DNA from: Candidatus Cloacimonadota bacterium
GTDB lineage: Bacteria; Cloacimonadota; Cloacimonadia; Cloacimonadales; JAMOQM01
DNA: 36,191 bases
Direction of reading: 5' to 3'
Assembly (NCBI GenBank): GCA_027064005.1
Contig: JAMOQM010000108.1
Coordinates: 1-36,191 of the forward strand
Part shown: positions 3 through 18,775 of the stretch, one piece after another
Layout of the letters: each line of letters begins with the position of its first letter
Position numbering within the stretch: position 1 is the first letter of the stretch
Position numbers and translations under genes: made by a program
The notes under the pieces: generated by a model
What the model was told of the DNA's origin: nothing
The model's database searches: none
Seen by the model: the letters and a program-made list of their open reading frames with translations, nothing else

Positions 3-338
3 GTAGTTGATAATGATGACAATACAAGTGCAACCATAAATACAATTATTTTGAATCAAAACTATCCAAATCCTTTCAGTCCAACCGGATCTGAACGTGG
101 AAATTCAACAACAATTTCATTTACAATTCCTACTGATGGGAATGTAAATATCGCTGTTTATAATATTAAAGGTCAAAAATTAAAAACACTAACAAACCAA
201 GAATATTCAAAAGGAAATCATAAAATTATTTGGAATGGAAAAGACGACAACAATAAAACCATTTCAAGCGGTGTCTATTTCTATAGATTAAAATCAGGGA
301 AATATACTTCTACGAAAAAAATCCTTGTTTTGAAATAG
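3..338 (+). CDS. 3' end of secreted protein with FlgD/Por-like C-terminal sorting domain (partial)
   Basis: The reading frame is open from the window edge (codon phase starting at base 3) to the TAG at 336-338, so the protein begins upstream. The visible part is an acidic, low-complexity linker followed by NQNYPNPFSPT and a beta-rich FlgD-Ig-like module ending in SGVYFYRLKSGKY and a basic KKILVLK tail. This is the conserved C-terminal targeting module of proteins secreted and anchored in the FCB group, usually through a type IX secretion system. The TTG start proposed in the ORF track lies inside the linker and is not a real start. The pullulanase at 22538-25936 ends in the same kind of module. 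The nature of the passenger domain cannot be seen. Confidence 0.85.
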   Translation, partial: VVDNDDNTSATINTIILNQNYPNPFSPTGSERGNSTTISFTIPTDGNVNIAVYNIKGQKLKTLTNQEYSKGNHKIIWNGKDDNNKTISSGVYFYRLKSGKYTSTKKILVLK

Positions 339-636: not shown

Positions 637-742
637 AAAACATTATTAACAACTTTTTCCATTTGACATATTTTTTTAAAATATAATATTTTGCTCAAGA
701 ACTTGAGGAGGCACATTGGAAATAATGATTAGCAAAAATATT
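637..742 (+). repeat. 106-bp dispersed repeat, copy 1 (promoter-RBS-start module)
   Basis: This segment matches 10894-10999 without gaps, with about nine mismatches over 106 bp (near 91% identity, counted by eye). It contains TTGACA (663-668), a TATAAT/TAATAT region (682-689), a strong GAGGAGG ribosome site and an ATG (725). In this copy the ATG opens only a 30-codon frame, so the module looks like the conserved 5' end of a lost or truncated gene, or a small mobile promoter element. Confidence 0.8.
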
Positions 743-1097: not shown

Positions 1098-1802
1098 ATG
1101 AAGAAAAAGATATTTGCGGTAGACGATGAGCCTGATATTCTCGAGTTAATTTCAATTAATATTAGAGAAGCTGGTTATAATGTCTTAACTTTTGAAGATT
1201 CACATTCATTGATGGTACAACTTGAAAAAGAAATTCCGGATTTGATTGTTCTTGATATTATGCTTCCGGAAATAGATGGTTTTGAAGTTTGCAGAATCCT
1301 TAGAAATTCTAAAAAATATAAAGAAATACCCATTTTGATGTTAACTGCAAGAAGTGATGTCACAGACAAAATTTTAGGATTGGAATTCGGAGCTGATGAT
1401 TATATGGTAAAACCCTTTTCACCACGAGAACTTGTTGCTAGGATCAAAAGCATTTTACGAAGAGTAAATACAAAATCAAAAATAGAAATCCCAAAAGAAA
1501 CAATTCGAAAAATTGGTGGATTAGAAATTGATATTGAAAAATATGAAGTACGCTTAAATAGTAAATTAGTGGATTTAACAACTACTGAATTCAAAATTCT
1601 TGAATTACTTTCAGAACGACCGGGGAATGTATATTCTCGAAATACTTTGCTTAATCATCTTTGGGGAAATGAAAAAATTGTTATTGATAGAACAATTGAT
1701 GTTCATATTAGAAATTTAAGAAAAAAACTCGGAGAAACAGGGAAATTAATAAAAAATGTTAGAGGAATAGGATATAAATTACGAAAGGTAATATGTAAAT
1801 GA
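1098..1802 (+). CDS. phoB: PhoB-type response regulator
   Basis: Transcriptional regulator of the phosphate-starvation response. Residues 1-120 form a receiver domain with the acidic pocket DDE near the N-terminus, the phospho-acceptor Asp53 (IVLDIMLPEIDGF), and the conserved Lys in MVKPFSP. Residues about 140-230 form an OmpR/PhoB winged helix ending in TIDVHIRNLRKKLGE and RGIGYKL. The length of 234 aa is normal for the family. The AAAAGGTGG site supports this ATG. The gene overlaps the sensor kinase by 4 bp (ATGA), showing translational coupling. Assignment to PhoB rather than another OmpR-family member rests on the adjacent kinase and the pst-phoU genes. Confidence 0.92.
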   Translation: MKKKIFAVDDEPDILELISINIREAGYNVLTFEDSHSLMVQLEKEIPDLIVLDIMLPEIDGFEVCRILRNSKKYKEIPILMLTARSDVTDKILGLEFGADDYMVKPFSPRELVARIKSILRRVNTKSKIEIPKETIRKIGGLEIDIEKYEVRLNSKLVDLTTTEFKILELLSERPGNVYSRNTLLNHLWGNEKIVIDRTIDVHIRNLRKKLGETGKLIKNVRGIGYKLRKVICK

Positions 1803-3526
1803 GAGTAGGAATTTTCTCAAAGTATTTATTGAGTTTTACAGTTTTGATTGTAACGTCATTATCAATTTCTCTCGTAGTATCTATTAGCACCATCAAAAAA
1901 AGTTATCTGAAGCAGAACAAAGCACATCTTCTTACACTTTCTAAAGTAGTTAAAATTTTAATTGAAGAAAATTCGTTTGACTTAAATAATTCAAAACTTC
2001 AACAAAAGATAAAAGAACTTTCCAAAAATATTGATTATAGAATAACAATAATTCTTAAAAATGGAAAAGTAATTTTTGATTCGGAAAAAAATCCGGCGTT
2101 AATGGAAAATCATAAAAACAGACCGGAGATTATCGAAGCTCGCAAAAGCGGAAAAGGTTATCGGTTACGTTGGAGCAATACTCTAAAAAAAGAGATGATG
2201 TATTTTGCTATTCCGATTTATCAGAACAAAGATATAGTTGCTTTCGTTCGTGTTAGCAGTTTTTCTGATGAAGTATTTATTCTCCTTAACAGCATCAAAA
2301 AAAATATGTTCTTAACCTCTTTCTTTATAATTTTGTTTTCATTTATAATTTCTTTTATCCTGGCAAATCGTTTTACGAAGCCAATAAAACAACTTGCTGA
2401 AGCCTCACAGCAAATAGCTAAAGGAAATTATCAAACTCGTGTTTTTACGAAAAATAGAGATGAAACGTATGAATTGACAAGTGGTTTTAATTATATGGCT
2501 AAAAAAATAAATGATCAAATTTCAGAAATTTCAAAACAATCTGAAAGGTTATCAATAATTATCAATTCAATTAATGAAATATTTTTTGTTATTGATAAAG
2601 AGGAAAAAATTGTATTTCAAAATCAAGAATTCTTGAATTTTATACAAAATAAAAATTTTAGTGAAAAAAGATATTGGGAAATAATCAGTAATCCTAAATT
2701 AATTAAAAAAATCGACAATGTTCTAAAATTTAAAACAAATGAAAAAGCAGAAATAAAAATCGGAGAAAGTTCCTATCTTTTCAGTAGCTCATATTTGCAA
2801 AAATCTTCTTCCGCAATCTTTCTTTTATTTGATGTAACTGAGATAAATAAATTTCGGGAAATAAAAAAAGATTTTTTGATAAACGCTTCTCACGAACTTC
2901 GAACTCCGCTGACTTCTATCAAAGGTTTTCTGGAAATAATGTCCGAAAATCCCAGTGCAGACAACTCTAAATATCTGAAAATATTAAATAGAAATACTAA
3001 CCGTTTAATAAATATTGTAAATGATATTCTAACTCTATCGCAAATTGAAACAAAACTTCAACTTTCATTAGAAAAAATTGATATTAGAAAAGTTCTGCAA
3101 AATTCAATAAAAATTTTTGAACATAAGACAAATGAAAAAGAGATAAAATTCACAACAAATTTTGAAAAAATACAGAAATTTAAATTTGACCCTTTCAAAT
3201 TGGAACAGGTTTTTGTTAATTTAATTGATAATGCAATAAAATACTCAAATGAAAAATGTAACATAAATATTTCACTTTTTTCTGAAAACAATTTTGTAAG
3301 AATAGATTTTTCAGACAACGGAATTGGTATAAAAAAAGAACAGATCCCTCGTTTATTTGAGCGATTTTATGTTGTTGATAAATCTCGTTCAAGAAAAGTT
3401 GGTGGAACAGGTTTGGGACTTTCAATAGTGAAACATATTATTCAGCTTCATAATGGTAAAATCAATATTCAAAGCGAATATGGAAAGGGAACAACAATTC
3501 AGCTATGGCTTCCGATAAAAATTTAG
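1799..3526 (+). CDS. phoR: PhoR-type membrane sensor histidine kinase
   Basis: Phosphorylates the upstream response regulator. The order is TM1 (residues about 8-30), an extracytoplasmic sensor region of about 130 residues, TM2 (about 168-190), HAMP (about 188-240), a PAS-like domain (about 245-350), HisKA with the phospho-acceptor in NASHELRTPLTSIKG (His365 by my count), and an HATPase_c domain with N box (NLIDNAIKYS), G1 (DNGIGI) and G2 (GGTGLGLSIV). The periplasmic sensor is larger than in enteric PhoR and resembles PhoR of Gram-positives and Bacteroidetes. The gene is coupled to phoB by an ATGA overlap, and its 3' end overlaps the sigma-like gene by 22 bp. Confidence 0.9.
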   Translation: MRVGIFSKYLLSFTVLIVTSLSISLVVSISTIKKSYLKQNKAHLLTLSKVVKILIEENSFDLNNSKLQQKIKELSKNIDYRITIILKNGKVIFDSEKNPALMENHKNRPEIIEARKSGKGYRLRWSNTLKKEMMYFAIPIYQNKDIVAFVRVSSFSDEVFILLNSIKKNMFLTSFFIILFSFIISFILANRFTKPIKQLAEASQQIAKGNYQTRVFTKNRDETYELTSGFNYMAKKINDQISEISKQSERLSIIINSINEIFFVIDKEEKIVFQNQEFLNFIQNKNFSEKRYWEIISNPKLIKKIDNVLKFKTNEKAEIKIGESSYLFSSSYLQKSSSAIFLLFDVTEINKFREIKKDFLINASHELRTPLTSIKGFLEIMSENPSADNSKYLKILNRNTNRLINIVNDILTLSQIETKLQLSLEKIDIRKVLQNSIKIFEHKTNEKEIKFTTNFEKIQKFKFDPFKLEQVFVNLIDNAIKYSNEKCNINISLFSENNFVRIDFSDNGIGIKKEQIPRLFERFYVVDKSRSRKVGGTGLGLSIVKHIIQLHNGKINIQSEYGKGTTIQLWLPIKI

Positions 3527-3996
3527 ATTTTGAAAAAGAACTTAAAGAGCTAACACCTCTTATCAAAAAAATTGCTTCCAACTTTATAACTCCCAGCATA
3601 ACTGCTGATGAATTATTTCAAGAAGGAGCAATAGGCGTTTATGAAGCTTTGAAAAAATTTGATTCGCAAAAAAACACAAAATTCTCAACTTATGCGTATT
3701 TTTGGATAAAAAAACATATTATGAAATATGTGGAAAAAGAAAAATCTAAATATAAACTCAATGATAAACTATTTCAAAATAAAATTGATGAAAATCCGAA
3801 AGAAGAATTCACATCAAAAAGTAGAATTTCTTTTCCTGAAACAATGCCAAAACCCGAAAAACAAGTGTTGGATCTTTTACTTAATGAAGAAAAACCACTT
3901 ATTGAAATTTCTAAAATTCTGAATATTTCAAGAGAAAAAGTTCGACAAATCAAAGAAATGGGTTTGAGACGACTAAAAATAAAAAAAACTTTGTAA
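3505..3996 (+). CDS. Small sigma-70 family factor
   Basis: A 163-aa protein with sigma region 2 (residues about 13-80: ADELFQEGAIGVYEALKKFD, then FSTYAYFWIKKHIMKYVEKE, the 2.3-2.4 promoter-melting helix) and region 4 (about 115-160: LNISREKVRQIKEMGLRRLK, a helix-turn-helix for -35 recognition). Region 1.1 is absent and region 3 is reduced to a short linker, so it is an alternative factor shaped between group 3 and ECF types. The ATG lies inside the last codons of phoR (22-bp overlap), with only a weak ribosome site, so translation probably depends on coupling to phoR. No anti-sigma gene is adjacent. The target promoters are unknown. Confidence 0.82.
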   Translation: MASDKNLDFEKELKELTPLIKKIASNFITPSITADELFQEGAIGVYEALKKFDSQKNTKFSTYAYFWIKKHIMKYVEKEKSKYKLNDKLFQNKIDENPKEEFTSKSRISFPETMPKPEKQVLDLLLNEEKPLIEISKILNISREKVRQIKEMGLRRLKIKKTL

Positions 3997-4046
3997 CTGT
4001 TTAAATTGTTTCATAAATTCAACTGTTTATTAAACTAATTTCTCCC

Positions 4047-4101
4047 CTTAACACAATCTTAACAATTCCTTTATTTTTAATTAACATTCGAATAGTATAA
4101 T
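4047..4101 (+). promoter_or_regulatory. Pho-box-like array and -10 element before porin-pst operon
   Basis: CTTAACA at 4047 and 4058 and ATTAACA at 4080 stand in an 11-bp register, with a degenerate unit at 4069. This is the same geometry as the PhoB box (7-bp direct repeats separated by 4 bp). A TATAAT follows at 4096-4101, nine bases after the last unit, so the array takes the place of a -35 box as in class II PhoB-activated promoters. The -10 sits inside a palindrome, GTATAATTATAC. The binding protein is inferred, not shown. Confidence 0.55.
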
Positions 4102-4130
4102 TATACGAAAGAAAAAATGAAGGAGGTAAA

Positions 4131-5183
4131 GTGAAAAAAACACTTTTGTTAGTAGTAATAATTTTGATAGTTGTCAGTTCATTGACAGCAGAAACAAAAT
4201 TAAAGATGGAATCGTGGAACAGATGGACTTATCAAACGGAAGATGGTGAACTTATTAAAAACGAGATGGCATTGAAAAGAGGTTATCTAAGATTAGAGCC
4301 TAAATTCGGTAGTAATATCTCAGGACGGTTTAATCTTGATTTCTTTAGCGATGACGATGCCGGAGATGGAGCAGGTATTAAGTTGAAATATGCTTATCTT
4401 GATTTCAGCAATTTGCTTCCTGTAAAAGATCTAAAATTTACAGTCGGTTTGATGAAAACTTATTTCGGAACAATTTATTCTTGGAATTATACAACAATTG
4501 AAAAAGACCCTTCAGACAAGTATAAATTTGTAAGTTCAACAGATTATGGATTTGGGCTAAGCGGTTATTTCCCAAATGGATTTGGAACTTATCAAGCAGC
4601 AGTTTATAATGGAGAAGGTTACAAAAAAACCGGTGATGAGCTTAATAAAGACATGAATTTTCTTGGAAATATTCGTGTGATTCCGATCCCAGGAATTACT
4701 GTTGGTGGTTCATTTATGATGAAGACAGCTAAGGATAGTGAAATCCCTGACAGTCAGGGAAATATGATTGATAATCCCGAAAGAGAGGAATTTACTCAAT
4801 TTGCTGTAATCGGTAATTTTGCTTATGGAAATGTCAAAATATTATCTCAGTATCTCAATCAAACAAAATCAACTCCAAATATAAACGGTTCAGATGATGT
4901 TGTAAAAACAGTAATTTCCTTGATGCCGACTTACAAAATAAATAACAAAATTGATTTGGTTGCAAGATATGATCTTTATGACCCAAACTCAGATGTAGAT
5001 GATGATGGAAAATCTTTAATGCTTTTCGGAGCAAATTATCATTTGATGAGAGATGCTAAAAACAAACCCAAATTAATGATTCAAGCTAATTATGAAATTG
5101 AAACACCGGAAGATAGCGATGCAGATGCTGTAAACACAATGATGGTTCAGTTACGCTGGATATTTTCAAACAAATTAAAATAA
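4131..5183 (+). CDS. Outer-membrane porin, phosphate-selective (OprO/P-like)
   Basis: A 350-aa protein with a cleavable signal peptide (KKTLLLVVIILIVVSSLTAE) and alternating aromatic/polar beta strands typical of a 16-18-strand barrel, with acidic turns such as DSDADAV. Size and pattern resemble the phosphate-selective porin O/P family. Its place directly after the Pho-box-like promoter and 16 bp before pstS suggests it admits phosphate or phosphorylated solutes. The start is a GTG behind a strong AAGGAGGT site. The C-terminus (IFSNKLK) lacks the usual terminal Phe. Specificity is inferred from context. Confidence 0.7.
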   Translation: MKKTLLLVVIILIVVSSLTAETKLKMESWNRWTYQTEDGELIKNEMALKRGYLRLEPKFGSNISGRFNLDFFSDDDAGDGAGIKLKYAYLDFSNLLPVKDLKFTVGLMKTYFGTIYSWNYTTIEKDPSDKYKFVSSTDYGFGLSGYFPNGFGTYQAAVYNGEGYKKTGDELNKDMNFLGNIRVIPIPGITVGGSFMMKTAKDSEIPDSQGNMIDNPEREEFTQFAVIGNFAYGNVKILSQYLNQTKSTPNINGSDDVVKTVISLMPTYKINNKIDLVARYDLYDPNSDVDDDGKSLMLFGANYHLMRDAKNKPKLMIQANYEIETPEDSDADAVNTMMVQLRWIFSNKLK

Positions 5184-5199
5184 AAAAATAGGAGACAAA

Positions 5200-6039
5200 A
5201 TGAAAAAATCAACAAAAATTATCTTGATCGGATTAGTAGTAATGATGATGTCTGTTTCAGCTTTTGCGAGAGGGAAAAAATCAACAATTACAATTGCCGG
5301 TTCAACAACTGTTTTACCGATAGCTCAGGCAACAGCTGAAGTATTTATGGATAAAAATCCTGATATTAATATTTCTGTTCGAGGAGGAGGTTCAAGTGTG
5401 GGAATAGCTTCCATTATGTCTGGTACAGTTGATATCGGAGATGCTTCTCGACATATAAAAAACAAAGAACTTGCTGCTGCAAGAAAATCAGGAATTAATA
5501 TTGTAGAACATATTGTGGCAAATGACGGAATTACAATTGTTCTAAATAATTCAAATACAATAGATGCTCTTACATTATCTCAATTAAAAGATATTTATAC
5601 CGGAAAAATCCAAAATTGGAAAGAACTTGGTGGGAAAAATATGCCAATCGTTGTTGTTTCAAGAGATGTTTCTTCAGGAACTTTTGAAGTATTTAACAAA
5701 CTTGTTTTAAAAAATGCAAAAGGTTTGAATAGTGCATTGATGCTGGCATCCAATAATGCAGTGGTTACGACTATTTCAACAACTCCGGGAGCAATTGGTT
5801 ATGTAGGATTGGGATATGTTACCGATAAAATAAAAGCTGTTTCTGTTGATGGAGTAAAAGCAACTGAAAAAACAATTCAAACGAAAGAATATCCAATTTC
5901 CAGAACTTTGCAAATGTACACAAGAGGTATTCCGACTGGTATTGTAAAACAATATATAGATTTTGTTCTCTCTCCTGAAGGGCAAGATATTGTCGAGCAA
6001 CAAGGATTTATAAGAATTATGGATGATAAAAATAAATGA
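5200..6039 (+). CDS. pstS: Phosphate ABC transporter substrate-binding protein PstS
   Basis: Periplasmic phosphate-binding protein of the high-affinity Pst system. It has a signal peptide (residues 1-23, ending AFA), then the PstS signature ITIAGSTTVLPIAQATAE and the phosphate-loop regions RGGGSSVGI, DIGDASR and SRDVSSGTFEVF, which carry the Ser, Asp, Arg and Thr ligands of the family. At 279 aa it is a normal short PstS. There is no lipobox, so it should be soluble. It is followed by a stem-loop that separates it from the membrane subunits. Confidence 0.93.
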   Translation: MKKSTKIILIGLVVMMMSVSAFARGKKSTITIAGSTTVLPIAQATAEVFMDKNPDINISVRGGGSSVGIASIMSGTVDIGDASRHIKNKELAAARKSGINIVEHIVANDGITIVLNNSNTIDALTLSQLKDIYTGKIQNWKELGGKNMPIVVVSRDVSSGTFEVFNKLVLKNAKGLNSALMLASNNAVVTTISTTPGAIGYVGLGYVTDKIKAVSVDGVKATEKTIQTKEYPISRTLQMYTRGIPTGIVKQYIDFVLSPEGQDIVEQQGFIRIMDDKNK

Positions 6040-6050
6040 TAAATTATGAA

Positions 6051-6093
6051 ATAAGCCTTCGGAATGGTATTTTATTACCTTCCGAATGCTTAT
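6051..6093 (+). terminator. Stem-loop between pstS and pstC (partial terminator or stabiliser)
   Basis: ATAAGC..TTCGGAA..GGTA pairs with TACCTTCCGAATGCTTAT around a TTTTAT loop, giving a long stem with single-base bulges. It is followed by A-rich rather than T-rich sequence, so it fits an mRNA-stabilising or attenuating hairpin better than a full terminator. It would leave more pstS than pstCAB message. Confidence 0.6.
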
Positions 6094-6137
6094 AAAAAAC
6101 AATGTAACAAAATTAGTAATGAAATAAGGATAAATTT

Positions 6138-7010
6138 ATGAAATCAATGAAAACATTCAATGAAAAGCTTTTTAAGTCAATTACATATCTTGCTACATTA
6201 TTTACAATTTTATGTTTAGGTGGAATAATAATCACAATTTTTTCCGAGGGTTTACCAATTTTAAAATATTCAAAATTAAATGAACTTTTTGGGATAGCTT
6301 GGCATCCTACAAGTTTCCCGCCGGAATTCGGATTCTTGCCGTTGATTGCCGGCTCGATAATTATTACGATCGGAGCTTTAATTATAGCAATTCCCTTTGG
6401 CATCGGTTCTGCAATATATATTTCTGAAATTGCAGGAAATAGAACAAAAGAGATAATCAAACCAATCATTGAGCTTCTCGCAGGAATTCCTTCTGTTGTT
6501 TACGGCTTATTTGGAATGGCTTTTCTCTCTCCTTTTTTGATAAGAATTTTTAGGATTCCAACCGGATTGAATGCTCTTTCCGCTTCAATAATTCTTGGAA
6601 TAATGGTAATTCCGATAATATCAAGTATGAGTGAAGATGCTCTTTCTGCTGTTCCCAAAAATCTAAGAGAAGCTTCTTTGGCACTTGGTGCTACAAAATG
6701 GGAAACAATTATAAAAGTTGTTCTTCCTTCAGCAAAAAATGGAGTTGTAGGAAGTATTACTTTAGGCTTTGGAAGAGCAATTGGTGAAACGATGGTTGTA
6801 ATAATGGTTGCCGGTGGAGCTGCTCAAATTCCTTCTTCAATATTTCAACCTGTTCGCCCTATGACAACTGCAATCGCTGCGGAAATGGGAGAAACCGTAA
6901 ATGGAAGTCCTCATTTTCACGCACTATTTGCTATATCAATTATCTTGTTTCTAATCACTTTTATTACAAATTTTATTACTGAATTTGTATTTTTAAAAAG
7001 GAAAAATTAA
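6138..7010 (+). CDS. pstC: Phosphate ABC transporter permease PstC
   Basis: Inner-membrane channel subunit of 290 aa with about six transmembrane segments. The binding-protein-dependent transport motif contacting PstB is seen as [20 protein letters not shown], followed by GFGRAIGETMVV, the charged Arg/Glu patch typical of PstC. It overlaps pstA by one base, so the two subunits are translationally coupled and form a heterodimer. The ATG follows an AAGGA site. The minus-strand ORF at 6113-6469 is a shadow. Confidence 0.92.
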   Translation: MKSMKTFNEKLFKSITYLATLFTILCLGGIIITIFSEGLPILKYSKLNELFGIAWHPTSFPPEFGFLPLIAGSIIITIGALIIAIPFGIGSAIYISEIAGNRTKEIIKPIIELLAGIPSVVYGLFGMAFLSPFLIRIFRIPTGLNALSASIILGIMVIPIISSMSEDALSAVPKNLREASLALGATKWETIIKVVLPSAKNGVVGSITLGFGRAIGETMVVIMVAGGAAQIPSSIFQPVRPMTTAIAAEMGETVNGSPHFHALFAISIILFLITFITNFITEFVFLKRKN

Positions 7011-7870
7011 TGAAAATAAATAAACGTAAAATTAATCAAATCATTGGAATTAATCTTCTTCGCTTTTTCCTGCTCTGCACTTTATTATTCATTATAATAT
7101 TTCTCTATATTATTTTCAGTAAAGGCGGAAAAGTTATTTCTTGGGAATTTCTAACGCAATCACCAAGAAAATTTATGACGGAAGGCGGCATTTTCCCGGC
7201 AATTGTCGGAACTTTTTGGCTAACAATTTTATCAATTGCAATCGCTTTCCCCTTTGGAATTTTTACAGCAATTTATATGACTAATTATGCAAAATCAAAT
7301 TTATTTCTTAAAATTGTAAGAATTTCCGTAAACACACTTGCAGGAACTCCATCTATAATTTATGGTCTTTTTGGACTAACGGTTTTTGTGCGATTTTTCG
7401 GTATGGATGTTTCAATGTTGGCAGGTTCACTTACTTTAGCGATACTAGTTTTACCTGTGATTATCAATAATACAGAAGAAGCTATCCGTAATGTTCCTGC
7501 TGATTTTATAAAAGCATCATTGGCACTGGGAGCAACTCAAAAACAAACTATTTTACGAGTGATTATTCCAACTGCTTTACCGGCAATTTTAACAGGTACG
7601 ATTATTAGTATTGGTAGAGTTGCAGGTGAAACAGCTCCGATATTATTTACAGCTGCGACTTTTTATACTCGCAAATTACCACAATCTGTTATGGATGAAG
7701 TTATGGCGCTTCCATATCAAATTTATGCACTTCTCACTGAAGGAGCTCACCCCGAGAAGCAAATTCCTATTGCTTATGGAACAGCTGTTGTCCTGCTATC
7801 ATTTGTTTTGATTGTCAGTGGAATTGCAATATTAATCAGATACAAAATGAGGAGAAATAGAAAATGGTAA
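7010..7870 (+). CDS. pstA: Phosphate ABC transporter permease PstA
   Basis: Second channel subunit, 286 aa and about six transmembrane segments. It carries the EAA-type loop [20 protein letters not shown] and the [14 protein letters not shown] motif characteristic of PstA. The start overlaps pstC by one base and the end overlaps pstB by 7 bp. The family assignment is clear from motif and order. Confidence 0.92.
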
Positions 7871-8619
7871 ACAAACATATTCAAACAAATGATTTTAATT
7901 TATGGTTTGGAAACAAGCATATTTTACACAATATTTCTATTCCTGTGTATGATAAAAAAATAACAGCATTAATTGGACCATCCGGTTGTGGAAAATCAAC
8001 TTTACTTCGCTCTTTCAACAGAATGAACGATTTAATTCCGGAAACCAAAATCAAAGGAAAAGTAATGCTTTTTGATGATGATATTTATAAACCAAAAATT
8101 GATGTTACAAAAATTAGAGCTCAGGTCGGAATGGTTTTTCAACGTCCAAATCCATTCCCGAAGTCTATTTATAAAAATGTTGCCTACGGATTAGAGATAA
8201 GAGGTGAAAAAAAATCACATATCGATGAAGCAGTGGAAAGAAGTTTGAGAAGCGCTTGGCTTTGGAACGAAGTAAAAGATAGATTAAATGATTCGGCTTT
8301 TTCATTATCCGGTGGTCAACAACAAAGACTTTGTATAGCAAGAGCCTTGGCAAATGACCCGAAAATTATTTTACTTGATGAACCAACTTCCGCTCTTGAT
8401 CCGCAATCAACAGCAAAAATTGAGGAACTCTGCATTGAACTTCGTGATAAAGTTACTATTCTGATTGTAACCCATAATATCGCTCAAGCAGGTAGAATTT
8501 CCGATTATACAGCATTTATGTATCTCGGAGAAATAATTGAATTTGGCGAAACAAAAAAAGTGTTCACTGTTCCCAAAAAGAAACAAACCGAAGCTTATTT
8601 GAATGGTGTTTTTGGATAA
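7864..8619 (+). CDS. pstB: Phosphate ABC transporter ATPase PstB
   Basis: Cytoplasmic ATPase of 251 aa with Walker [10 protein letters not shown], a Q-loop region [15 protein letters not shown] typical of PstB, signature LSGGQQQR, Walker [13 protein letters not shown] and the H-loop His in IVTHN. The start overlaps pstA by 7 bp. It is the last gene of the tight pst run; a 227-bp gap with its own promoter-like sequence follows before phoU. Confidence 0.95.
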
Positions 8620-8710
8620 GCAGGTCATAAAATGTTGGAGAAGTTTTTTGCATTTGAGATTATTTTCATTTGATCTGATCTTTTCATATTTGACATATCT
8701 CAATTTAATA

Positions 8711-8741
8711 TTGACAATATTGATATATGCTTAAATATAAT
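8711..8741 (+). promoter_or_regulatory. Candidate promoter for phoU
   Basis: TTGACA (8711-8716) and TATAAT (8736-8741) lie 19 bp apart in the 227-bp pstB-phoU gap, which otherwise shows no gene. A second TTGACA at 8690-8695 is also present. The spacing is longer than the usual 17 bp, so the call is tentative. Confidence 0.35.
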
Positions 8742-8846
8742 AGTATCTTTTCTTCAACAATTTTAATGTATGTACAGCAAGCTATTGCATCACCAGAAGA
8801 AAAAATTTTTATGACAATAGAATAAAAAACACAATATCAGGAGAAA

Positions 8847-9497
8847 ATGATGATTTATAAAATGGATGAATTTAAAAAGAAGGTAATCCTTCAAGCCGGA
8901 ACAGTAGAATTTATGTTTGAACTATTTATAGAAAATCTTCAAAGAAAGAATGAAAAAAAGTTGAAAGAAATTTTCCTCTTAGAAGAAAAAGTAAATACAA
9001 AAGAGATAGAAATCGAAGAAGATATTATTGGTATGATAGCACTTTATCAGCCGGAAGGAAAAAATCTTAGAACTGCTTTAATGATTATGAAAATGAATAA
9101 TGATTTGGAAAGAGTAGGTGATTTAGTAAGCGATATGGCTAACTTTTATTTATCTGATTCAATGGGACACAATTTTAAATTCCTTGAAAAACTTATTCTT
9201 ATGTGTAAAAAATCTTACGAAATGTTAAAAGAAAGCATTGAATCATTTATAAAGGAAGATCCTATCATTGCAAAAACAGTCTGTGAAAAAGATGATTTTG
9301 TTGATGATTTACACTCTGAACTAAGAAAAGATATTATTAAATATGTTCAAAAAAATCCTACTGAAACTGAAAAAATTTTAAATTACTATAATATTATTTT
9401 TAAAATTGAACGAATTGCCGACCTTGCCACAAATATTGCTGAAGAAGCAATCTATTTATCAAAAGGCAAAGATATTAAACACGGATTGTTTGGATAA
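8847..9497 (+). CDS. phoU: PhoU-family phosphate signalling regulator
   Basis: A 216-aa all-helical protein with two PhoU repeats. The metal-binding-type motifs are present: MNNDLERVGDLVSDMANFY in the first repeat and KIERIADLATNIAEEAIYL in the second. PhoU proteins restrain PhoR signalling and Pst transport when phosphate is sufficient. The ribosome site CAGGAGAAA precedes two adjacent ATG codons (8847 and 8850); either could be used. It lies downstream of pstB, the usual order, but with a larger gap. Confidence 0.9.
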   Translation: MMIYKMDEFKKKVILQAGTVEFMFELFIENLQRKNEKKLKEIFLLEEKVNTKEIEIEEDIIGMIALYQPEGKNLRTALMIMKMNNDLERVGDLVSDMANFYLSDSMGHNFKFLEKLILMCKKSYEMLKESIESFIKEDPIIAKTVCEKDDFVDDLHSELRKDIIKYVQKNPTETEKILNYYNIIFKIERIADLATNIAEEAIYLSKGKDIKHGLFG

Positions 9498-9685
9498 TAA
9501 AATAATTTCACGTAACAAAACACTTACAATAAGCACGAAAAAAGCAGGAAGAACGGGGCATGCTCAAACATTACCGGCAATCACCAAAAGAGGAAGTCTA
9601 AATGGATATTATTTTCAGTGAAAACAGTATTGGTATTGTTATGAAAATAACCCTTTGAACATATTAAATAAGAGGAGGGACTAAA

Positions 9686-10633
9686 ATGAGAATCAACACC
9701 AAACCAATTAATGGAAATCTAATTATAAAATTTGCGAATGATCCTTTAGAAAACGCACTGATTGATGGCATCCGGAAGACAATTAACAGGTTTAGAGAGA
9801 GACCATTAAATTTTTTTACTGAATCCGATATCCATTCTTCATTGATGAAAGATATAATGGTTGGGAATTCAAAGGTATTTTTATTTAAAGATGACAAATA
9901 CCCCGAAGTTTCATTAGTTCACAATGAATATCCAACAAATTTCAGATATGAAAAGAAAAAGTTGTTGAAAGGATATACCGGAAATGACACTGAAATTGAA
10001 AAACAAACAAACATTGAAGTAAAAACAGGTGACAGGGGAAATTTTGATTTGTCTATACTAAATAGAGATTTTGTAGAAAATATGTTTAACAACCCTACTT
10101 GTCTAATAAACAGCAAAGGGAAAAGAAAAGATAAGCATGATTTGAATGAATCAATAAAAAATATCATTAATAAAAATATAGGTTATCCTATTCAAAGAAA
10201 ATCAAAGAATAATATTAAATTTCAAGAAGAATTACTATATGCTATTGAAGTAAAATTCATTCACCCTTTTAATGCTCGAGATAAAGGTATGTTGGACGAA
10301 GTAATCAAAGATAATAGAAAGCTTAAATTAACAAGAATTCATTCCGGCAACAAAACCAAAGTTCTTAACTTAATCTTTTGCTCTTCCGATGCATTAAAAA
10401 GAAGAGATAAAGAAAAATCAGTAATTGATCGGATAAAGAAGTATGTTCGCCAACAAAATAAAACCCAAAAAATACCCGATGATGTGATCAATATATTCAT
10501 AGAATCATACATTTTTAAAGATTCAAAAAATAACAGTACAATAAAAGAAACTGAAAAGCCATTAATCTCAATTGGAGGCAACTGCACGGATAACCTGTTT
10601 TTCAAGCAACTTAAAAATGCCTTAAAAATATGA
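9686..10633 (+). CDS. Uncharacterised protein, possible PD-(D/E)XK-like nuclease fold
   Basis: A 315-aa soluble protein with no signal peptide or membrane segment. I do not recognise a named family. A PD-(D/E)XK-like pattern is visible: an early TESDIHSSLM helix with a candidate Glu, VSLVHNEYPTNFRYE, then GDRGNFDLSILN with a candidate metal-binding Asp, then LLYAIEVKFIHPF with an E-x-K pair. These are in the right order for a restriction-endonuclease-like fold, but nuclease activity is not shown. The GGAGGGACTAAA ribosome site supports the ATG. Its last codons overlap the next gene by ATGA, so both are one operon. The preceding 188 bp hold no recognisable gene. Codon use is like the surroundings. 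Confidence 0.6.
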   Translation: MRINTKPINGNLIIKFANDPLENALIDGIRKTINRFRERPLNFFTESDIHSSLMKDIMVGNSKVFLFKDDKYPEVSLVHNEYPTNFRYEKKKLLKGYTGNDTEIEKQTNIEVKTGDRGNFDLSILNRDFVENMFNNPTCLINSKGKRKDKHDLNESIKNIINKNIGYPIQRKSKNNIKFQEELLYAIEVKFIHPFNARDKGMLDEVIKDNRKLKLTRIHSGNKTKVLNLIFCSSDALKRRDKEKSVIDRIKKYVRQQNKTQKIPDDVINIFIESYIFKDSKNNSTIKETEKPLISIGGNCTDNLFFKQLKNALKI

Positions 10634-10857
10634 AACTTAACTTCAAAATCCATAGAAGAACAAAAGGAATTGGTGGTTCTTGGCCAGAAGTCCGAACTTT
10701 AAACACAAGAATCATTATGGATATCGGAATGCCATTAGCCAATGCAATGAAAAAGCAACTTAATTTCAGGAAATATGAGAAACTTGAAAATGCGGAATTG
10801 ATAAAACGAAAAATCCTGCCGACATTAAATGGCCTTATGATAGAAATGAGAATTTAG
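10630..10857 (+). pseudogene. Truncated N-terminus of RNase J-like MBL-fold hydrolase
   Basis: The 75 codons start KLNFKIHRRTKGIGGSW, then NTRIIMDIGMPLANA and LPTLNGLMI. This resembles the first beta strands of beta-CASP/RNase J-like metallo-beta-lactamase hydrolases (an IHRGxKEIGGS..E....TRI..D.GMPL pattern). The frame stops just before the HxHxDH metal motif should appear, so it cannot be an active enzyme. It is coupled to the preceding gene by ATGA, so an intact ancestor was probably a nuclease/hydrolase gene pair. Remote similarity is by eye only. Confidence 0.6.
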
Positions 10858-10859
10858 TT

Positions 10860-10893
10860 GATGTGGCATTAATTTCTATAGATTAAATTCAGG
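10860..10893 (+). pseudogene. Short remnant of a sorting-domain tail
   Basis: ATTTCTATAGATTAAA followed by TCAGG closely matches the DNA for YFYRLKSGK at 280-300 in the first gene of the window. The surrounding frame is broken. It marks the junction where the MBL fragment ends and the second 106-bp repeat begins. Confidence 0.45.
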
Positions 10894-10999
10894 AAAACAT
10901 TATTAACAACTCTTTCCATTTGACATATTTTTTCAAAATATAATACTTTGCTTAAGAACTTGAGGAGGCTCTTTGGAGATAATGATTAACAAAAATCTT
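10894..10999 (+). repeat. 106-bp dispersed repeat, copy 2 (promoter-RBS-start module)
   Basis: Gap-free match to 637-742. TTGACA, the TATAAT region, GAGGAGG and the ATG (10982) are all kept; here the frame stops after ten codons (MINKNLDYKK). The following 180 bp to the next remnant contain no recognisable coding sequence. Both copies sit next to fragments of genes from mobile or accessory elements. Confidence 0.8.
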
Positions 11000-11180
11000 G
11001 ACTATAAAAAATAATAGAAATTATTGAAAATAATTGGATGAATTATAAAAATGATAAAAGAAAAATATACACAATTGTTGTTATCCTGCCAAATAAGAAG
11101 AATAACAACAATTTATGATACAGACAAGTTAGCGGTTATTGAAAAGAAATTTCGATTATCTTTGTAGAAAAGGAATTAGA

Positions 11181-11342
11181 ATGACAAAATTAGAAAGAAA
11201 TATAAATTTGAATTTTTACAATAAGATTGCTGAACTTTTAAAGAATGCTCAAAATAAAGTTGTTCACACTGTTAATAAAACAATGGTTTATACATACTTT
11301 GAAATAGGCCGAACAATTGTAGAAGATAAATCCATTTTGTGA
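11181..11342 (+). pseudogene. N-terminal remnant of DUF1016/YhcG-type protein
   Basis: With its own AAAAGGAAT site, the 53-codon frame reads FYNKIAELLKNAQNKVVHTV and then VYTYFEIGRTIVEDK, which matches the start of the DUF1016 N-terminal domain (a winged-helix-like domain normally followed by a PD-(D/E)XK nuclease). The frame ends abruptly at a TGA and the rest of the family, usually over 300 aa, is missing. Confidence 0.65.
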
Positions 11343-11733
11343 AATTAAAATTATCGAGGAGAAACTGTCCGAAAAAATAGATTTATCTCCCTTTCAATTT
11401 GACGGAATTGCTGATTGTTTAGATAATTATGAAAGCAGATTTAACTTAGAAAATAAAATTACGGAACAGCATTTTCTTGTTCATGGTGGAGTTGCGAAAG
11501 ATTTTGGACAAGTTACTACAATTATAAAAAATAAAACTAAGAAATTAGCAGAGATTTTTCAGGGCTCAAATTATACCGGTAATGAGGGGGTATTGCCTCA
11601 AATAGTTAATATTATCGGTTCGATTATGTCTAAAGAAATTATCAATAATTTGCTTGAAGAACCGGAATTACTGAACAAAATTTTGGTTTTTGAGTTGGAA
11701 GATTTTTCACTTGAATTTATTAACTTGAAATAA
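11341..11733 (+). pseudogene. Start-less ORF, 3' part of an unrecognised gene
   Basis: Beginning at the stop of the DUF1016 remnant but in another frame, 130 sense codons stay open until TAA at 11731. The product (for example SEKIDLSPFQFDGIADCLD, later QHFLVHGGVAKDFGQVTTII and a hydrophobic-acidic C-terminus) reads like real protein with normal composition, but no usable start precedes it, and it is missing from the ORF track for that reason. I do not recognise the family. It is most likely the C-terminal part of another gene fused by deletion to the DUF1016 fragment. Confidence 0.5.
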
Positions 11734-11756
11734 AATAGGAATTATTGATTTACGAT

Positions 11757-11775
11757 AAATGAATCGGATTCATTT
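11757..11775. promoter_or_regulatory. 19-bp palindromic operator candidate
   Basis: AAATGAATCGGATTCATTT has perfect 9-bp arms around one central base. It lies about 20 bp upstream of a TTGACA and about 90 bp upstream of the first gene of the glucan locus. Size and symmetry fit a dimeric helix-turn-helix regulator of the LacI or a similar family. No such regulator gene is in the window and no second copy was noticed. Confidence 0.5.
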
Positions 11776-11793
11776 ATTTTCTTATATTTTTAC

Positions 11794-11821
11794 TTGACAT
11801 ACAACTCTATAGAAATAAAAA
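11794..11821 (+). promoter_or_regulatory. Candidate promoter of the glucan-utilisation locus
   Basis: TTGACA (11794-11799) is followed after 16 bp by TAAAAA (11816-11821), a weak -10; a TATAGA at 11808 is too close. It lies between the 19-bp palindrome and the AGGAGGT ribosome site of the first amylase. Confidence 0.4.
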
Positions 11822-11864
11822 ATTTTTCTGTTACATTTCTAAAAAATGTAGCGAGGAGGTAGTT

Positions 11865-14093
11865 ATTAATAGAAAAGGAATTTGTTTTATTAAATTTGTT
11901 TTATTCATTGTTTTATTAAATATTTCACCTAAGATTTTTGCCAATCCTAAACTGGATACTTATATCCAATCTAGCTTCACAAAATTTTCAAATAATAAAT
12001 ATGATAATTCTTCTACTTTCTTTTCTCATAAATCTATTATAGTTTGGGGAACCCATTCCGATGACGAAGATGAAGCGGATATTAACGAAACAATGGCGGA
12101 AAATGTTGTTGATTTCAGAATTAAAAAATGGCTAAACCACGAAAATAATGTTGTAAAAGTCATTCCTGATACAGATGTTACTTTGTCAGATTTACAAAAC
12201 TACAACCTGATCTTGGTTGGAACTCCATCTTCAAATATATATTTGAAGAAAATTACTAAATTTCTGCCAATAAAAATTACTGAAGATGAAATTATCGCCG
12301 ATAATAAGAAATTTGAAGGTGATGAAGTTGGAATCAATTTCCGTTATGCAAATCCTTATAATCCCAAAACCCAAATTTGGATAATTTCAGCTCCGTCTTA
12401 TGAAGCTCTGCGTTTTATTCCGAAAAAACAAGATTATTGCATTTATCAACTTACAAGTTACAATCCGTCTGCTGATCGCTTTAAAGAGCTCGCTATTGGG
12501 AATTTCTCAAAAAAATGGAATCTTAAAAAATTAGCTTTGGTTGATACTGTCTCTATTGAAACTGACGAAAATAATCCTATCAAAGTATCGGAATTAAAGA
12601 ATTTTCCATCTCCAAATTGGATTAAAACCGGTGTGATGTATGAGATTTTTGTACGAAGTTTTTACGATAGTGATGGCGATGGTATTGGTGATTTGAATGG
12701 AATTACGAAAAAGCTGGATTATCTCAATGATGGGAATCCTGACACTGATACTGATTTGGGAATTAAAACTATTTGGTTGATGCCGATTTTCGAATCACCG
12801 AGTTATCATGGTTATGATGTTACAAATTATTTAAAAATAAATCCCGATTATGGTACAAATGAAGATTTTAGAAAATTGTTGCGAGAAGCACATAAAAGAG
12901 GAATAAAAATTATTACCGATATAGCTTTGAATCACTGTTCTTCTCAACATAGATTTTTTAAAGACGCTTACGGGAATTTAAAATCAAAATATTCTGATTG
13001 GTTTTATTTTACAAATCCTTCTCATACTAAAGCTGATAATTGGGAATTCCGAACCAATAAAAAAGATAAAGATATGCTCGATCCGCCAATGCCGGCTTGG
13101 AATGTGAATAATCCTAAAGTGGCAAAATATTTATTTGATGCTGCTAAATATTGGCTCGATCCGAATAAAGACGGTGATTTTTCTGACGGTATTGACGGTT
13201 TTAGATGCGATTATGTAAAAGGACCTCCCAAAGAATTTTGGCAAAATTTTAGACAAGAAGTTAAAGCGATTAATCCGAACATTTTGCTTTTAGCTGAAGA
13301 TTGGGAAGGATTGGATTCGATAGCAAAAGATTTTGATAATGAATTTGATATGGCATTTGATTTTCCGTTTCAAGGAAGTTTGATGGAAGCTGTTTCGGAA
13401 GGGAATGCCCGTGATTTTATCCATTTGATTATGAGCGAAAAAGATGCTTTACCGAAAAATGCCGTGATGAACCGATTTGTAAATAATCATGATATGAATA
13501 GAATTTCTTCCGTTTTGAGATCCGAACAAGTTAAATTGGCTTTTGTAACATTGTTGACTTTCCCCGATATGCCAATGCTTTATTACGGAGATGAGATTGG
13601 GATGAAAGGAATTAAAGATCCTTATGATGAAGGGATTCGCCGTCCAATGGAATGGACTTCTTTAAATTCTTCTAAAGGTACCACAAATTGGTATCCTGCC
13701 TGGTCAAATGAAAAAGATGGGATTTCGGTCGAAGAAGAATCAAAAGATAAAAATTCGCTTTTTAATTTTGTGAAGAAATTAATTGCTCTCAGAAATGAAA
13801 ATAGCGTCTTTGAAACAGGGAAAGTGAAATTTAATAGCGTAATAATCAATTCCGGAGATGATGCTGAAGATTATAAACGAGCAATTTCTTATACTGTTTC
13901 TAATAAAAAAGATAGTTTTGTTGTAGTAGAAAATCTTTATAAAGAGAAAAATCTAACTATTGAGCTTTCTAAAAATCAGGAAATCACTGCAAAAGAAATA
14001 ATAAAACAAGATGGTGTTAATTATAAAATTATCGGAAATAAACTTAGCGGTTTTTTCCCAAATAGAAGTTTTTTAATAATTAAAATAAAATAG
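11865..14093 (+). CDS. Secreted GH13 alpha-amylase-family enzyme, probable ATT start
   Basis: Extracytoplasmic alpha-glucan hydrolase. The ORF track begins at an internal ATG (12093), but the frame is open upstream to an ATT at 11865, five bases after a strong AGGAGG. From there the protein begins with a good signal peptide (INRKGICFIKFVLFIVLLNI, then SPKIFA), giving 742 aa. Residues about 50-245 form an N-terminal domain with NLILVGTPSSN and YANPYNP, a module also seen in secreted esterases and peptidases. The GH13 barrel follows, with the catalytic triad in GFRCDYVKG (nucleophile Asp, about 449), LLLAEDWEG (acid Glu, about 478) and FVNNHDMNR (Asp, about 543), then a C-terminal beta domain. 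A DSDGDGIGDL calcium-type loop is present. It leads the MalEFG operon (14-bp gap). Exact substrate is unknown. Confidence 0.85.
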   Translation: MNRKGICFIKFVLFIVLLNISPKIFANPKLDTYIQSSFTKFSNNKYDNSSTFFSHKSIIVWGTHSDDEDEADINETMAENVVDFRIKKWLNHENNVVKVIPDTDVTLSDLQNYNLILVGTPSSNIYLKKITKFLPIKITEDEIIADNKKFEGDEVGINFRYANPYNPKTQIWIISAPSYEALRFIPKKQDYCIYQLTSYNPSADRFKELAIGNFSKKWNLKKLALVDTVSIETDENNPIKVSELKNFPSPNWIKTGVMYEIFVRSFYDSDGDGIGDLNGITKKLDYLNDGNPDTDTDLGIKTIWLMPIFESPSYHGYDVTNYLKINPDYGTNEDFRKLLREAHKRGIKIITDIALNHCSSQHRFFKDAYGNLKSKYSDWFYFTNPSHTKADNWEFRTNKKDKDMLDPPMPAWNVNNPKVAKYLFDAAKYWLDPNKDGDFSDGIDGFRCDYVKGPPKEFWQNFRQEVKAINPNILLLAEDWEGLDSIAKDFDNEFDMAFDFPFQGSLMEAVSEGNARDFIHLIMSEKDALPKNAVMNRFVNNHDMNRISSVLRSEQVKLAFVTLLTFPDMPMLYYGDEIGMKGIKDPYDEGIRRPMEWTSLNSSKGTTNWYPAWSNEKDGISVEEESKDKNSLFNFVKKLIALRNENSVFETGKVKFNSVIINSGDDAEDYKRAISYTVSNKKDSFVVVENLYKEKNLTIELSKNQEITAKEIIKQDGVNYKIIGNKLSGFFPNRSFLIIKIK

Positions 14094-14107
14094 TCTGTGG
14101 AGGAATT

Positions 14108-15304
14108 ATGAAAAAAAGAATATTTGTAATATCATTGTTTTCCTTAATGTTAAACATGTTGTTTTCACAAACACAAATAGTATTATGGCACTCATATCGA
14201 GGAGCTGAAAAAACTGCAATAAATAAGGTTGTGGCTAATTTTAATGCTCAAAATAAAGATGTAAAAATCAAAGCTTTGGCTGTTCCGTTCGATGCTTTTC
14301 CTGATAAAATAACAGCTGCTATTCCCCGTGGAAAAGGACCTGATATCTTTATTTTTGCTCACGACAGAATAGGCGGTTGGGTAGAAGGAAATGTTATTGA
14401 ACCTCTTGATTATTATTTAGATGACGATATAAGCGAAAATTTTGTAGAAGGTGCATATAAACCAATGGTTTATAATGAATCTCTTTACGGACTGCCAATG
14501 GCTGTAAAATCTATTGTTCTTTATTACAACACAGATTTATTGAAAAATCCACCTAAAACAACTGACGAAATGATTGCAGTGGCAAAAAAATTTACCGATC
14601 CTAAATCCGGAAAATACGGACTTGTTTATGAAAATGCAAATTATTATTACAATGCCTGTTGGATGCAAGGTTTCGGAGGACGTGTTTTCGATAAAAACAA
14701 TCATCCGATAATCAATTCACCGGAATGTGTCCGATCTTTTCAATTTTCACAAGATTTGTTTTTAAAAGATAAAATTGTTCCGCCGGAAGTTTCCAATATT
14801 TTGGTGACAACTCTATTTAATGAAAATAAGGCGGCAATGGCTATCAGTGGACCTTGGTTTAGAGGAGAAATAGCCAAAAACATACATTATAAAGTTGCAC
14901 TTCTTCCTATAATTTCCGAAACAAATACTCGAGCATTACCGTTTATGAGTTCAGAAGGTGTTATGATGAGTGCCAAATCTAAAAATAAAGATGCTGCCTT
15001 TAAAGTTATGAAGTATTTGGTTAACGATGAATCTGCTTACATTATGGCGAAAATCGGGAAACAACCTGTTGCCAATAAATCTGTTTATTCTCATAAAGAT
15101 ATTGCCGATGATCCGTTTTTACCTATTTTCAAAAAACAAATTAAATATTCAATTCCGATGCCAAGTATTCCCCAAATGACATTTGTTTGGTCTCCGGCTT
15201 CGAGTGCGATAAATGCGGTTATCAATGGTGAATCTCCTAAGAAAGCTTTGGACAAAGCTGAAAATACTGTTCTGAAAAACCTAAAAGCTGCCGGATTTAA
15301 ATAG
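14108..15304 (+). CDS. malE: Maltose/maltodextrin-type ABC substrate-binding protein
   Basis: A 398-aa family-1 extracellular solute-binding protein with a signal peptide ending LFSQ, then TQIVLWHSYRGAEKTAINKV, GKGPDIFIFAHDRIGGW (the classic MalE-like segment), a YGLPMAVKSIVLYYNTDLL hinge and a C-terminal helix region with NAVINGESPKKALDKAE. No lipobox Cys is seen, so it should be periplasmic. Position between an amylase and MalF/MalG homologues supports maltodextrin as ligand; the symbol is by analogy. Confidence 0.87.
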   Translation: MKKRIFVISLFSLMLNMLFSQTQIVLWHSYRGAEKTAINKVVANFNAQNKDVKIKALAVPFDAFPDKITAAIPRGKGPDIFIFAHDRIGGWVEGNVIEPLDYYLDDDISENFVEGAYKPMVYNESLYGLPMAVKSIVLYYNTDLLKNPPKTTDEMIAVAKKFTDPKSGKYGLVYENANYYYNACWMQGFGGRVFDKNNHPIINSPECVRSFQFSQDLFLKDKIVPPEVSNILVTTLFNENKAAMAISGPWFRGEIAKNIHYKVALLPIISETNTRALPFMSSEGVMMSAKSKNKDAAFKVMKYLVNDESAYIMAKIGKQPVANKSVYSHKDIADDPFLPIFKKQIKYSIPMPSIPQMTFVWSPASSAINAVINGESPKKALDKAENTVLKNLKAAGFK

Positions 15305-15313
15305 GATTTTCTA

Positions 15314-17083: not shown

Positions 17084-17916
17084 TTAACGGCAAATCAAAA
17101 AAAGGATTATTCTTTTCTTACCTAATTTTGACAATTGTGTCTCTCATAACAATTTATCCGGTGTTGTGGGTTTTAAAAGTTGCTTTTGGGGGAACGTCTT
17201 TATTAAGTACTTCTTTAAGTTTGATTCCTCAACATATTTCTTTAGATAATTTTAAAGAAATAATTTATGATAAACCATTCCTTTTGTGGTTAAAAAATAG
17301 TGTTATTGTTTCCGGTGTTACAACAATTTCCAGTTTATTTTTAGCAACAACTGCCGGTTATGCTTTTTCAAGATTTAAATTTCCCGGTCAAAAAGAAGGA
17401 TTGTTGGCTCTTTTGGTGACCCAAATGTTTCCCGGTGTTTTGATGATTATTCCGCAATTTATTCTTATCTCAAGTGTTCTGCATCTTTATGGCTCATTAT
17501 GGGGATTAGTTATAATTTATAGCACGACTGCTTTACCGTTTTCAATTTGGATTTTAAAAGGTTATTTTGATACAATCCCAATTTCTTTGGAAGAATCCGC
17601 AAGAATTGACGGAGCGTCGAGAAGCAGAGTTTTCTGGCAAATCATTATTCCTTTAAGCAAACCTTCCATAGCAATAACTGCACTTTTTTCTTTTATGACA
17701 GCTTGGAACGAATTTATTTTAGCAGCTACATTTTTGGATTCTGAAGCAAAATATACTTTACCAATCGGTTTAAAACAAATGGTCGGAGAATTTGGTGCCG
17801 AATGGGGTCATTTTGCAGCTTCTTCAATCTTGGTTGCAATTCCGGTTGTTGTACTTTTCATGATTTTTCAAAAATTCCTCATCTCCGGTTTGACTGCCGG
17901 CGGTGTAAAAGGATAA
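17080..17916 (+). CDS. malG: MalG-type ABC permease
   Basis: Partner channel subunit, 278 aa with six transmembrane segments and the EAA loop LEESARIDGASRSRVFWQII followed by IPLSKPSIA. The C-terminus SGLTAGGVKG is a near-perfect match to the MalG tail that reaches into the ATPase dimer. It overlaps malF by 4 bp. The ATPase (MalK/MsmK type) is not encoded in the window. Confidence 0.92.
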   Translation: MINGKSKKGLFFSYLILTIVSLITIYPVLWVLKVAFGGTSLLSTSLSLIPQHISLDNFKEIIYDKPFLLWLKNSVIVSGVTTISSLFLATTAGYAFSRFKFPGQKEGLLALLVTQMFPGVLMIIPQFILISSVLHLYGSLWGLVIIYSTTALPFSIWILKGYFDTIPISLEESARIDGASRSRVFWQIIIPLSKPSIAITALFSFMTAWNEFILAATFLDSEAKYTLPIGLKQMVGEFGAEWGHFAASSILVAIPVVVLFMIFQKFLISGLTAGGVKG

Positions 17917-17933
17917 ATAACAAAGGAGGATAT

Positions 17934-18755: not shown

Positions 18756-18775
18756 GGAATTTAAAAGGAGATATA

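Follow-up and report, generated by a model that had tools for sequence, protein, structure and literature searches.

A 106-nucleotide repeat in a contig of a Candidatus Cloacimonadota bacterium is, judged by its sequence, the predicted promoter, ribosome site, and first codons of a tyrosine-recombinase gene. It occurs twice in the window, by which we mean the whole stretch of 36,191 nucleotides that was analysed. We consider it probable that units headed by this leader are recombinase-deleted, promoter-bearing docking sites of an integron-like, non-IntI system, and that they express the cassette behind them. The ancestral platform would have consisted, all in one direction, of a promoter, one or more recombinase genes, an attachment site, and captured cassettes. 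The recombinase body would then have been deleted and what was left, a small unit with a promoter, a start codon, a stub frame, and an attachment site, dispersed. A cassette would start exactly at a G^TT boundary behind the unit and would be transcribed from the unit's promoter, if that promoter works. G^TT would be the crossover point at which cassettes enter or move through a recombinase acting in trans. The scheme builds on features seen directly: the sequence anatomy, a deletion common to several copies, a sharp G^TT followed by different genes, and intact recombinases before homologous tails in relatives.

A dispersed leader of a tyrosine-recombinase gene

The ungapped direct repeat that the earlier note described at positions 637–742 and 10894–10999 was recovered with 92% identity (91.5%, E 1e-36 in a second comparison). 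A genome-wide search found 11 leader copies on seven contigs: two in the window (C108), two on C33, three on C18, and one each on C56, C153, C35, and C125, the last cut by the contig end. Three more lie in another MAG, JAMOQG01 (stretches L023–L025). The repeat is thus dispersed as proposed, although two copies was too low a count, and a chance origin was rejected because there are 11 copies and the E-value between the window copies is 1e-36. Leader copies do not cluster by genome; those of C18 are mostly 92–98% identical to leaders of the other MAG versus 83–90% to the window copies. Viral contigs and plasmid or phage collections contained no leader, viral contigs contained no type 2 hairpin pattern (see below), and an Rfam search of all leader-bearing contigs matched no family. 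JAMOQG01 is labelled Peptostreptococcaceae, yet it has a leader family in common with a T9SS-domain-rich genome, which suggests that the label is wrong or that there is a binning error.

The two window copies diverge completely after 106 nucleotides, as the earlier note had it, but this does not hold against other copies. Copy 1 matches further for about 200 nucleotides, to ~945, with 87–88% identity to C33, and matches C153 at 84% as far as ~835; copy 2 matches the three C18 copies onward to about 11112–11149. On these alignments, the end of the 106-bp repeat is best read as a recombination or deletion junction and not as an element end.

Most signals first drawn in the leader are present: TTGACA (663–668 and 10920–10925), GAGGAGG (705–711 and 10962–10968), and in-frame TTG/ATG codons (716/725 in copy 1, 10973/10982 in copy 2). 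TATAAT also occurs (682–687 and 10939–10944), but it lies only 13 nt behind TTGACA and so does not fit as its -10; the promoter is therefore plausible but other than the one first drawn. At a legal spacing of 16 nt, the predicted -10 is AATATT/AATACT, with 10 of 12 matches. The region's 5 promoter-like sites are a slight excess over shuffles (2.8, sd 1.6), and the -35/-10 match is just mildly better than in shuffles, which counts against the main reading. Aligned copies have in common TTTGACA (TTTTGACA in one), AAAATATAA, a ribosome site that reads GGAGG except in one C18 copy, where it is GTAGG, and a TTG-GAA/GAG start followed in most copies by ATG. No terminator pattern was found in either window region.

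The gene behind the leader is revealed by the C56 copy, whose frame has no stop before the contig end; its product, LEMMISKDIKINMNNHLLGYIELLKEKGYSKPTIKTYQLHLQRFLNYLKEK.., is the N-terminus of a tyrosine recombinase (NF040815, E 5e-6). Among intact recombinases of relatives, the nearest ones of the IntA-like and single types are 46–50% identical to it, and IntB is more weakly similar. An XerA/XerD-like N-terminal domain thus follows the leader in C56, in a frame truncated by the contig end. In the copies termed type 1 (window 637, two on C33, C153, and two JAMOQG01 contigs, L024 and L025), the first ~35 codons are joined to the last ~25 by one common internal deletion. Their parent may have been a tandem pair or one long recombinase, as the N-terminus fits intA and the single L062/L064 type alike. 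After ..KPTIKT the frame runs into (T)TEIYTHVTSKTLQRINNPLDNLEI*, a recombinase C-terminus, which in the L024 fusion matches TIGR02249 positions 283–315 (E 7e-4); in C153 this part breaks off after EIYT. AAAACA is a likely micro-homology at the deletion junction, judging from the letters on either side. One junction recurs at several loci and in two genomes, so the deleted form itself has multiplied. The earlier suggestion of the 5' end of a repeatedly inserted and then deleted gene is therefore right about a deleted gene, a tyrosine recombinase as C56 indicates, but not about deletion anew at each insertion. A PF00589 search of the assembly gave XerC, XerD, and one fragment and no intact non-housekeeping recombinase, a result limited by the C56 copy running off its contig end. 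With no intact recombinase beyond XerC and XerD in the assembly, we can only infer present-day mobility, which counts against our main reading.

Copy 1 of the window, on the forward strand, has this type 1 anatomy. Its leader (637–742) is followed by the remaining N-terminal coding stretch (..DNHLLGYFDLLNQKRYGK.., 743–818), which runs to the deletion junction and is frameshifted relative to an in-frame counterpart in L024. The last 25 recombinase codons (TTEIYTHITSKTLQRINILLNNLEI*, 819–896) and an attI-like tail (897–970) follow. About 37 bp of this tail are missing compared with other copies, and it ends GGTATAGATG^TTA with the boundary at 970/971. A response-regulator gene (1098–1802, forward strand) now lies downstream, with no cassette kept between.

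Two types of tail and a boundary at G^TT

Complete type 1 copies carry behind the stub an attachment-site-like tail that ends GATAGATG^TTA. The tail is ~100 bp long and its end reads GG(T)ATAGATG^TTA. Beyond G^TT, the copies diverge to background and each has a different gene behind it. When seven type 1 units are aligned at the boundary, mean pairwise identity is 0.94 in the last 10 nt before it and 0.26–0.39 per 10-nt bin from +10, where composition alone predicts 0.31. The same layout, ACAATAACT..AGTTATTGTA, TAACTATAGGTTAGTTATG, GGCGTGG, and ATG^TTA, occurs behind intact intA-intB pairs of relatives, most clearly in L067, L068, L095, and L098. The type 1 tail folds no better than shuffles (z 0.4 and 1.1), which speaks against the main reading, and the tail was rejected as a hairpin site. 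In one family of the order, tandem tyrosine-recombinase pairs trailed by a conserved attI-like tail are frequent (L095–L098, L067, L068). Several of these contigs break off ~70–100 bp after the second gene, as a site present in many copies would cause them to do.

Type 2 units comprise window copy 2 and the three C18 copies. Here the leader is left at a homology block, A(G/A)CAAAAATnTTGA, and a second element follows with a promoter-like TTGACT, GGAGG, ATGATAAAAGAAAAATAT, a hairpin (ATTGTTGTTATCC..GGATAACAACAAT), and GATACACACAAG^TT. This promoter-ATG-hairpin element ends ACACAAG^TT. In window copy 2, all on the forward strand, the leader with promoter 1 spans 10894–10999 and the junction into the second element spans 10990–11053, with TTGACT at 10998 and ATG at 11051. 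The hairpin of the attachment-like site (AATTGTTGTTATCC ... GAATAACAACAATT, 11073–11113) scores 98 bits (E 7e-12) and is followed by TATGATACAGACAAG^TT (11114–11130), with the boundary at 11128/11129. Beyond it the sequence is unique to copy 2 and contains a broken cargo gene (11139–11342), whose truncated frame encodes a piece of DUF1016_N, of the PDDEXK nuclease family, that scores 32.0 bits, just under the Pfam cut-off of 32.8.

A relative shows the probable parent arrangement. In L082 (G095:C293), a type 2 tail starts immediately after an intact gene for a 277-aa recombinase. A promoter-like sequence of its own precedes this gene, and the protein scores 229.8 bits against NF040815 (cut-off 220). 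Folded as DNA, the L082 hairpin has a z of -7 to -9. Mean pairwise identity at the type 2 boundary is 0.75 before it and falls to 0.31–0.36 from 20 nt past it. Searched with a covariance model, 16 of 107 genomes in the order and 22 of 125 in the class contain the type 2 tail, and this genome has 9 strong copies of it. Against our reading, covariation in the hairpin is weak (only 1 of 10 pairs changed on both sides), and several type 2 elements stand before ordinary genes, where nothing points to a cassette array.

Recombinase loss has taken several forms. L148 and L150 have other deletions that remove the catalytic body and retain promoter and tail. C82 has lost the catalytic body and kept the tail; its promoter is not seen because the contig starts at the start codon. 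The whole recombinase gene is missing from L086 and L087, again with promoter and tail retained, and comparison of L087 with L082 points to what appears to be a Shine-Dalgarno to Shine-Dalgarno loss between two AAGGAGATT ribosome-site repeats of L082. The C67/C107/C36 group has only the C-terminal part and the tail, as does G067. We think that the retained promoter-plus-site would be what matters, mainly for the reason that differently placed deletions keep both. Survivorship could yield the same deletion pattern if promoters were kept since they drive resident genes.

Both window copies look decayed. Copy 1 has a frameshift in its stub, a shortened tail, and no cassette; copy 2 has the broken DUF1016 gene behind it. 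Upstream of copy 2, a 75-aa frame (10630–10857) resembles the beginning of a longer protein that has been cut short, and this frame together with the DUF1016 fragment marks the neighborhood as decayed. Between that frame and the leader lies a remnant like a T9SS sorting-domain gene end (10863–10893, forward strand), with a junction as at C56. Ends or remnants of T9SS sorting-domain genes also occur just upstream of several other leaders or tails (window 167–305, C56, C35, C125). Elsewhere in the window, a 300-nt repeat (12639–12938 and 26688–26987, ~76–82% identity) lies inside two long reading frames and is probably due to paralogous genes.

Cargo, movement, and relation to known systems

The genes behind the units are AbiEi and AbiEii on C33; a DNA methyltransferase, a weak Stk2 match, and an ABC-3C CTD10 protein on C18; a TIR/SpbK-like protein in L025; a type I methyltransferase in G067; an ATP-grasp protein in L024; and the DUF1016_N fragment of window copy 2. 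These matches suggest a mostly defence-like cargo (AbiE, methyltransferases, TIR, type I RM). The earlier note held that the two copies would be simple pseudogene starts if all others preceded one intact gene family, which was not seen, since the downstream genes all differ. Its idea of a mobile promoter-leader gains indirect support from a repeated unit on C18 and from the family being common to another MAG. The C18 unit, 464 bp of IS-end-like stretch, leader, and type 2 tail, is present twice with 94.8% identity and extends from a G^TTAAG as far as the following CG^TTG, and its inner 390–407 bp recur in a third copy. The IS-end-like stretch (TGTCAATGGCAATTAAATCCGGTACA..) precedes the leader in all three copies (12960–13060, 14890–14985, and 21020–21117; L013). 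Mobility of the units would fit this arrangement.

An IntI recombinase has a specific extra block between conserved patches, and the TIGR02249 cut-off is 265 bits. The parent-type L082 recombinase reaches 204 bits in two stretches, and positions ~182–238 of the model are skipped in it and its relatives. TIGR02249 was therefore rejected as the parent family, and since the recombinase does not pass as IntI, we do not class the units as an IntI integron. Of the order's 107 genomes, 3 have an IntI over the cut-off; none was found in this genome. The tails do stand next to intact recombinases as attI does, with sharp G^TT boundaries at which crossover would occur. Sequences like attC (R''-L''/L'-R' layout, TAACACGCAGCTCCAC..GTGGCAGCTGCC..^TTA) occur at C18:13158, at C33:5436, and on the IntI contig G098:C175; one candidate folds no better than shuffles. 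The R''/L'' boxes of attC were not seen in the type 2 tail, which is a simple long hairpin. On G098:C175 (L131), an IntI-like recombinase at 52–1053 is split over three short frames and points away from an ~18-kb cassette-like gene run (1301–19368). At either end of the stretch read there are attC-like sites, and near 19282 a type 2 tail. With an IntI gene, attC-like sites, and a type 2 tail on one contig, cross-talk between the IntI and pad systems is possible.

MITE-like non-autonomous derivatives arise when a recombinase is internally deleted, its acting ends are kept, and the product multiplies. The units described here resemble them in internal deletion followed by multiplication, but the parts retained are a promoter and an attachment site. 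No terminal inverted repeats or target duplications were noticed. By analogy, they would work like an integron platform or a promoter cassette, and promoter cassettes in integrons are already known. The Treponema “reverse” integron, with intI in cassette direction (PMC3607928, PMC6557892), is similar in its co-directional recombinase gene, attI-like site, and cassettes, and in its boundary at G^TT. Fates there also include loss of the recombinase gene with remnants left, as in T. phagedenis (PMC3607928). In contrast, the recombinase here is XerA/XerD-like, lacks the IntI-specific block, and is often a tandem pair, and in place of a single platform there are many recombinase-deleted units at scattered positions. 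Promoter-bearing ORF-less cassettes of Treponema (PMC6557892) and Vibrionaceae (PMC11014356) are also gene-less mobile units that place a promoter before other cassettes, for which the C18 464-bp unit would qualify. Unlike them, the units here use the promoter of the recombinase gene itself, together with its ribosome site and start codon, which became joined to an attachment site when the gene body was lost. Delta-attI-type cassettes of class 1/2 integrons (PMC12901181) likewise carry a shortened attI as a cassette part; in those, a piece of attI stands in for attC downstream of a resistance gene, whereas here promoter and stub precede the site. We found no description of such recombinase-deleted promoter pads in the part of the literature covered by our search.

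Competing explanations and significance

Plain decay would make the copies functionless pseudogene starts of an often-inserted recombinase family, with G^TT marking old insertion points and a promoter conserved because the copies are young. The state of both window copies, an assembly with no intact recombinase, and leaderless fragments (C107, C36, C67) are consistent with this idea. We regard it as rather improbable: the deleted form multiplied with an identical junction in two genomes, deletions at different places all retain promoter and tail, and most non-window copies front long open genes, often for defence, 30–100 nt from the boundary. It is unlikely, too, that the units are remnants of a classical integron, that is, promoter-bearing ORF-less cassettes whose IntI is elsewhere or lost. 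The attC-like sequences on C18, C33, and the IntI-bearing G098:C175 contig, the position of the C18 unit between such sites, and the promoter activity demonstrated for Treponema ORF-less cassettes (PMC6557892) would fit, but the recombinase of the leader and tails lacks the IntI-specific block, IntI is rare in the order and not found here, and no attC boxes were seen in the type 2 tail.

Spread by homologous recombination or insertion sequences, with the leader riding on repeated flanks (T9SS sorting-domain genes, IS remnants), would account for the T9SS-domain remnants before window copies 1 and 2 and C56 and for the IS-end-like stretch on C18. Upstream flanks vary by copy group, however, and the downstream G^TT is common to all complete units, so that we doubt this explanation. 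The tails could instead be RNA elements, acting in the leader transcript as attenuator or terminator hairpins, and the type 2 tail does fold into a highly stable hairpin within a short reading frame of the leader. This is highly improbable given no terminator pattern in either window region, no Rfam match, identity that stops at a fixed G^TT and not at the hairpin, and a sequence that is strongly conserved but covaries weakly, as protein binding would better explain. Docking sites of an integron-like, non-IntI system remain our preferred reading. That they belong to a cassette-capture system separate from integrons, run by one or two XerA-like tyrosine recombinases with their own hairpin sites, in which recombinase-free pads load and express defence genes at scattered loci and not in a single array, is a tentative proposal.

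If the docking-site reading is true, this genome keeps the useful part of a platform, its promoter and docking site, at many loci despite loss of the recombinase. Short promoter-bearing repeats met in genome scans should be treated with caution, as they can be remnants of mobile platforms. Because its recombinase carries no IntI signature, the system would escape standard integron searches. A class of bacteria about which little is known would then be tied to a system that shuffles defence genes.
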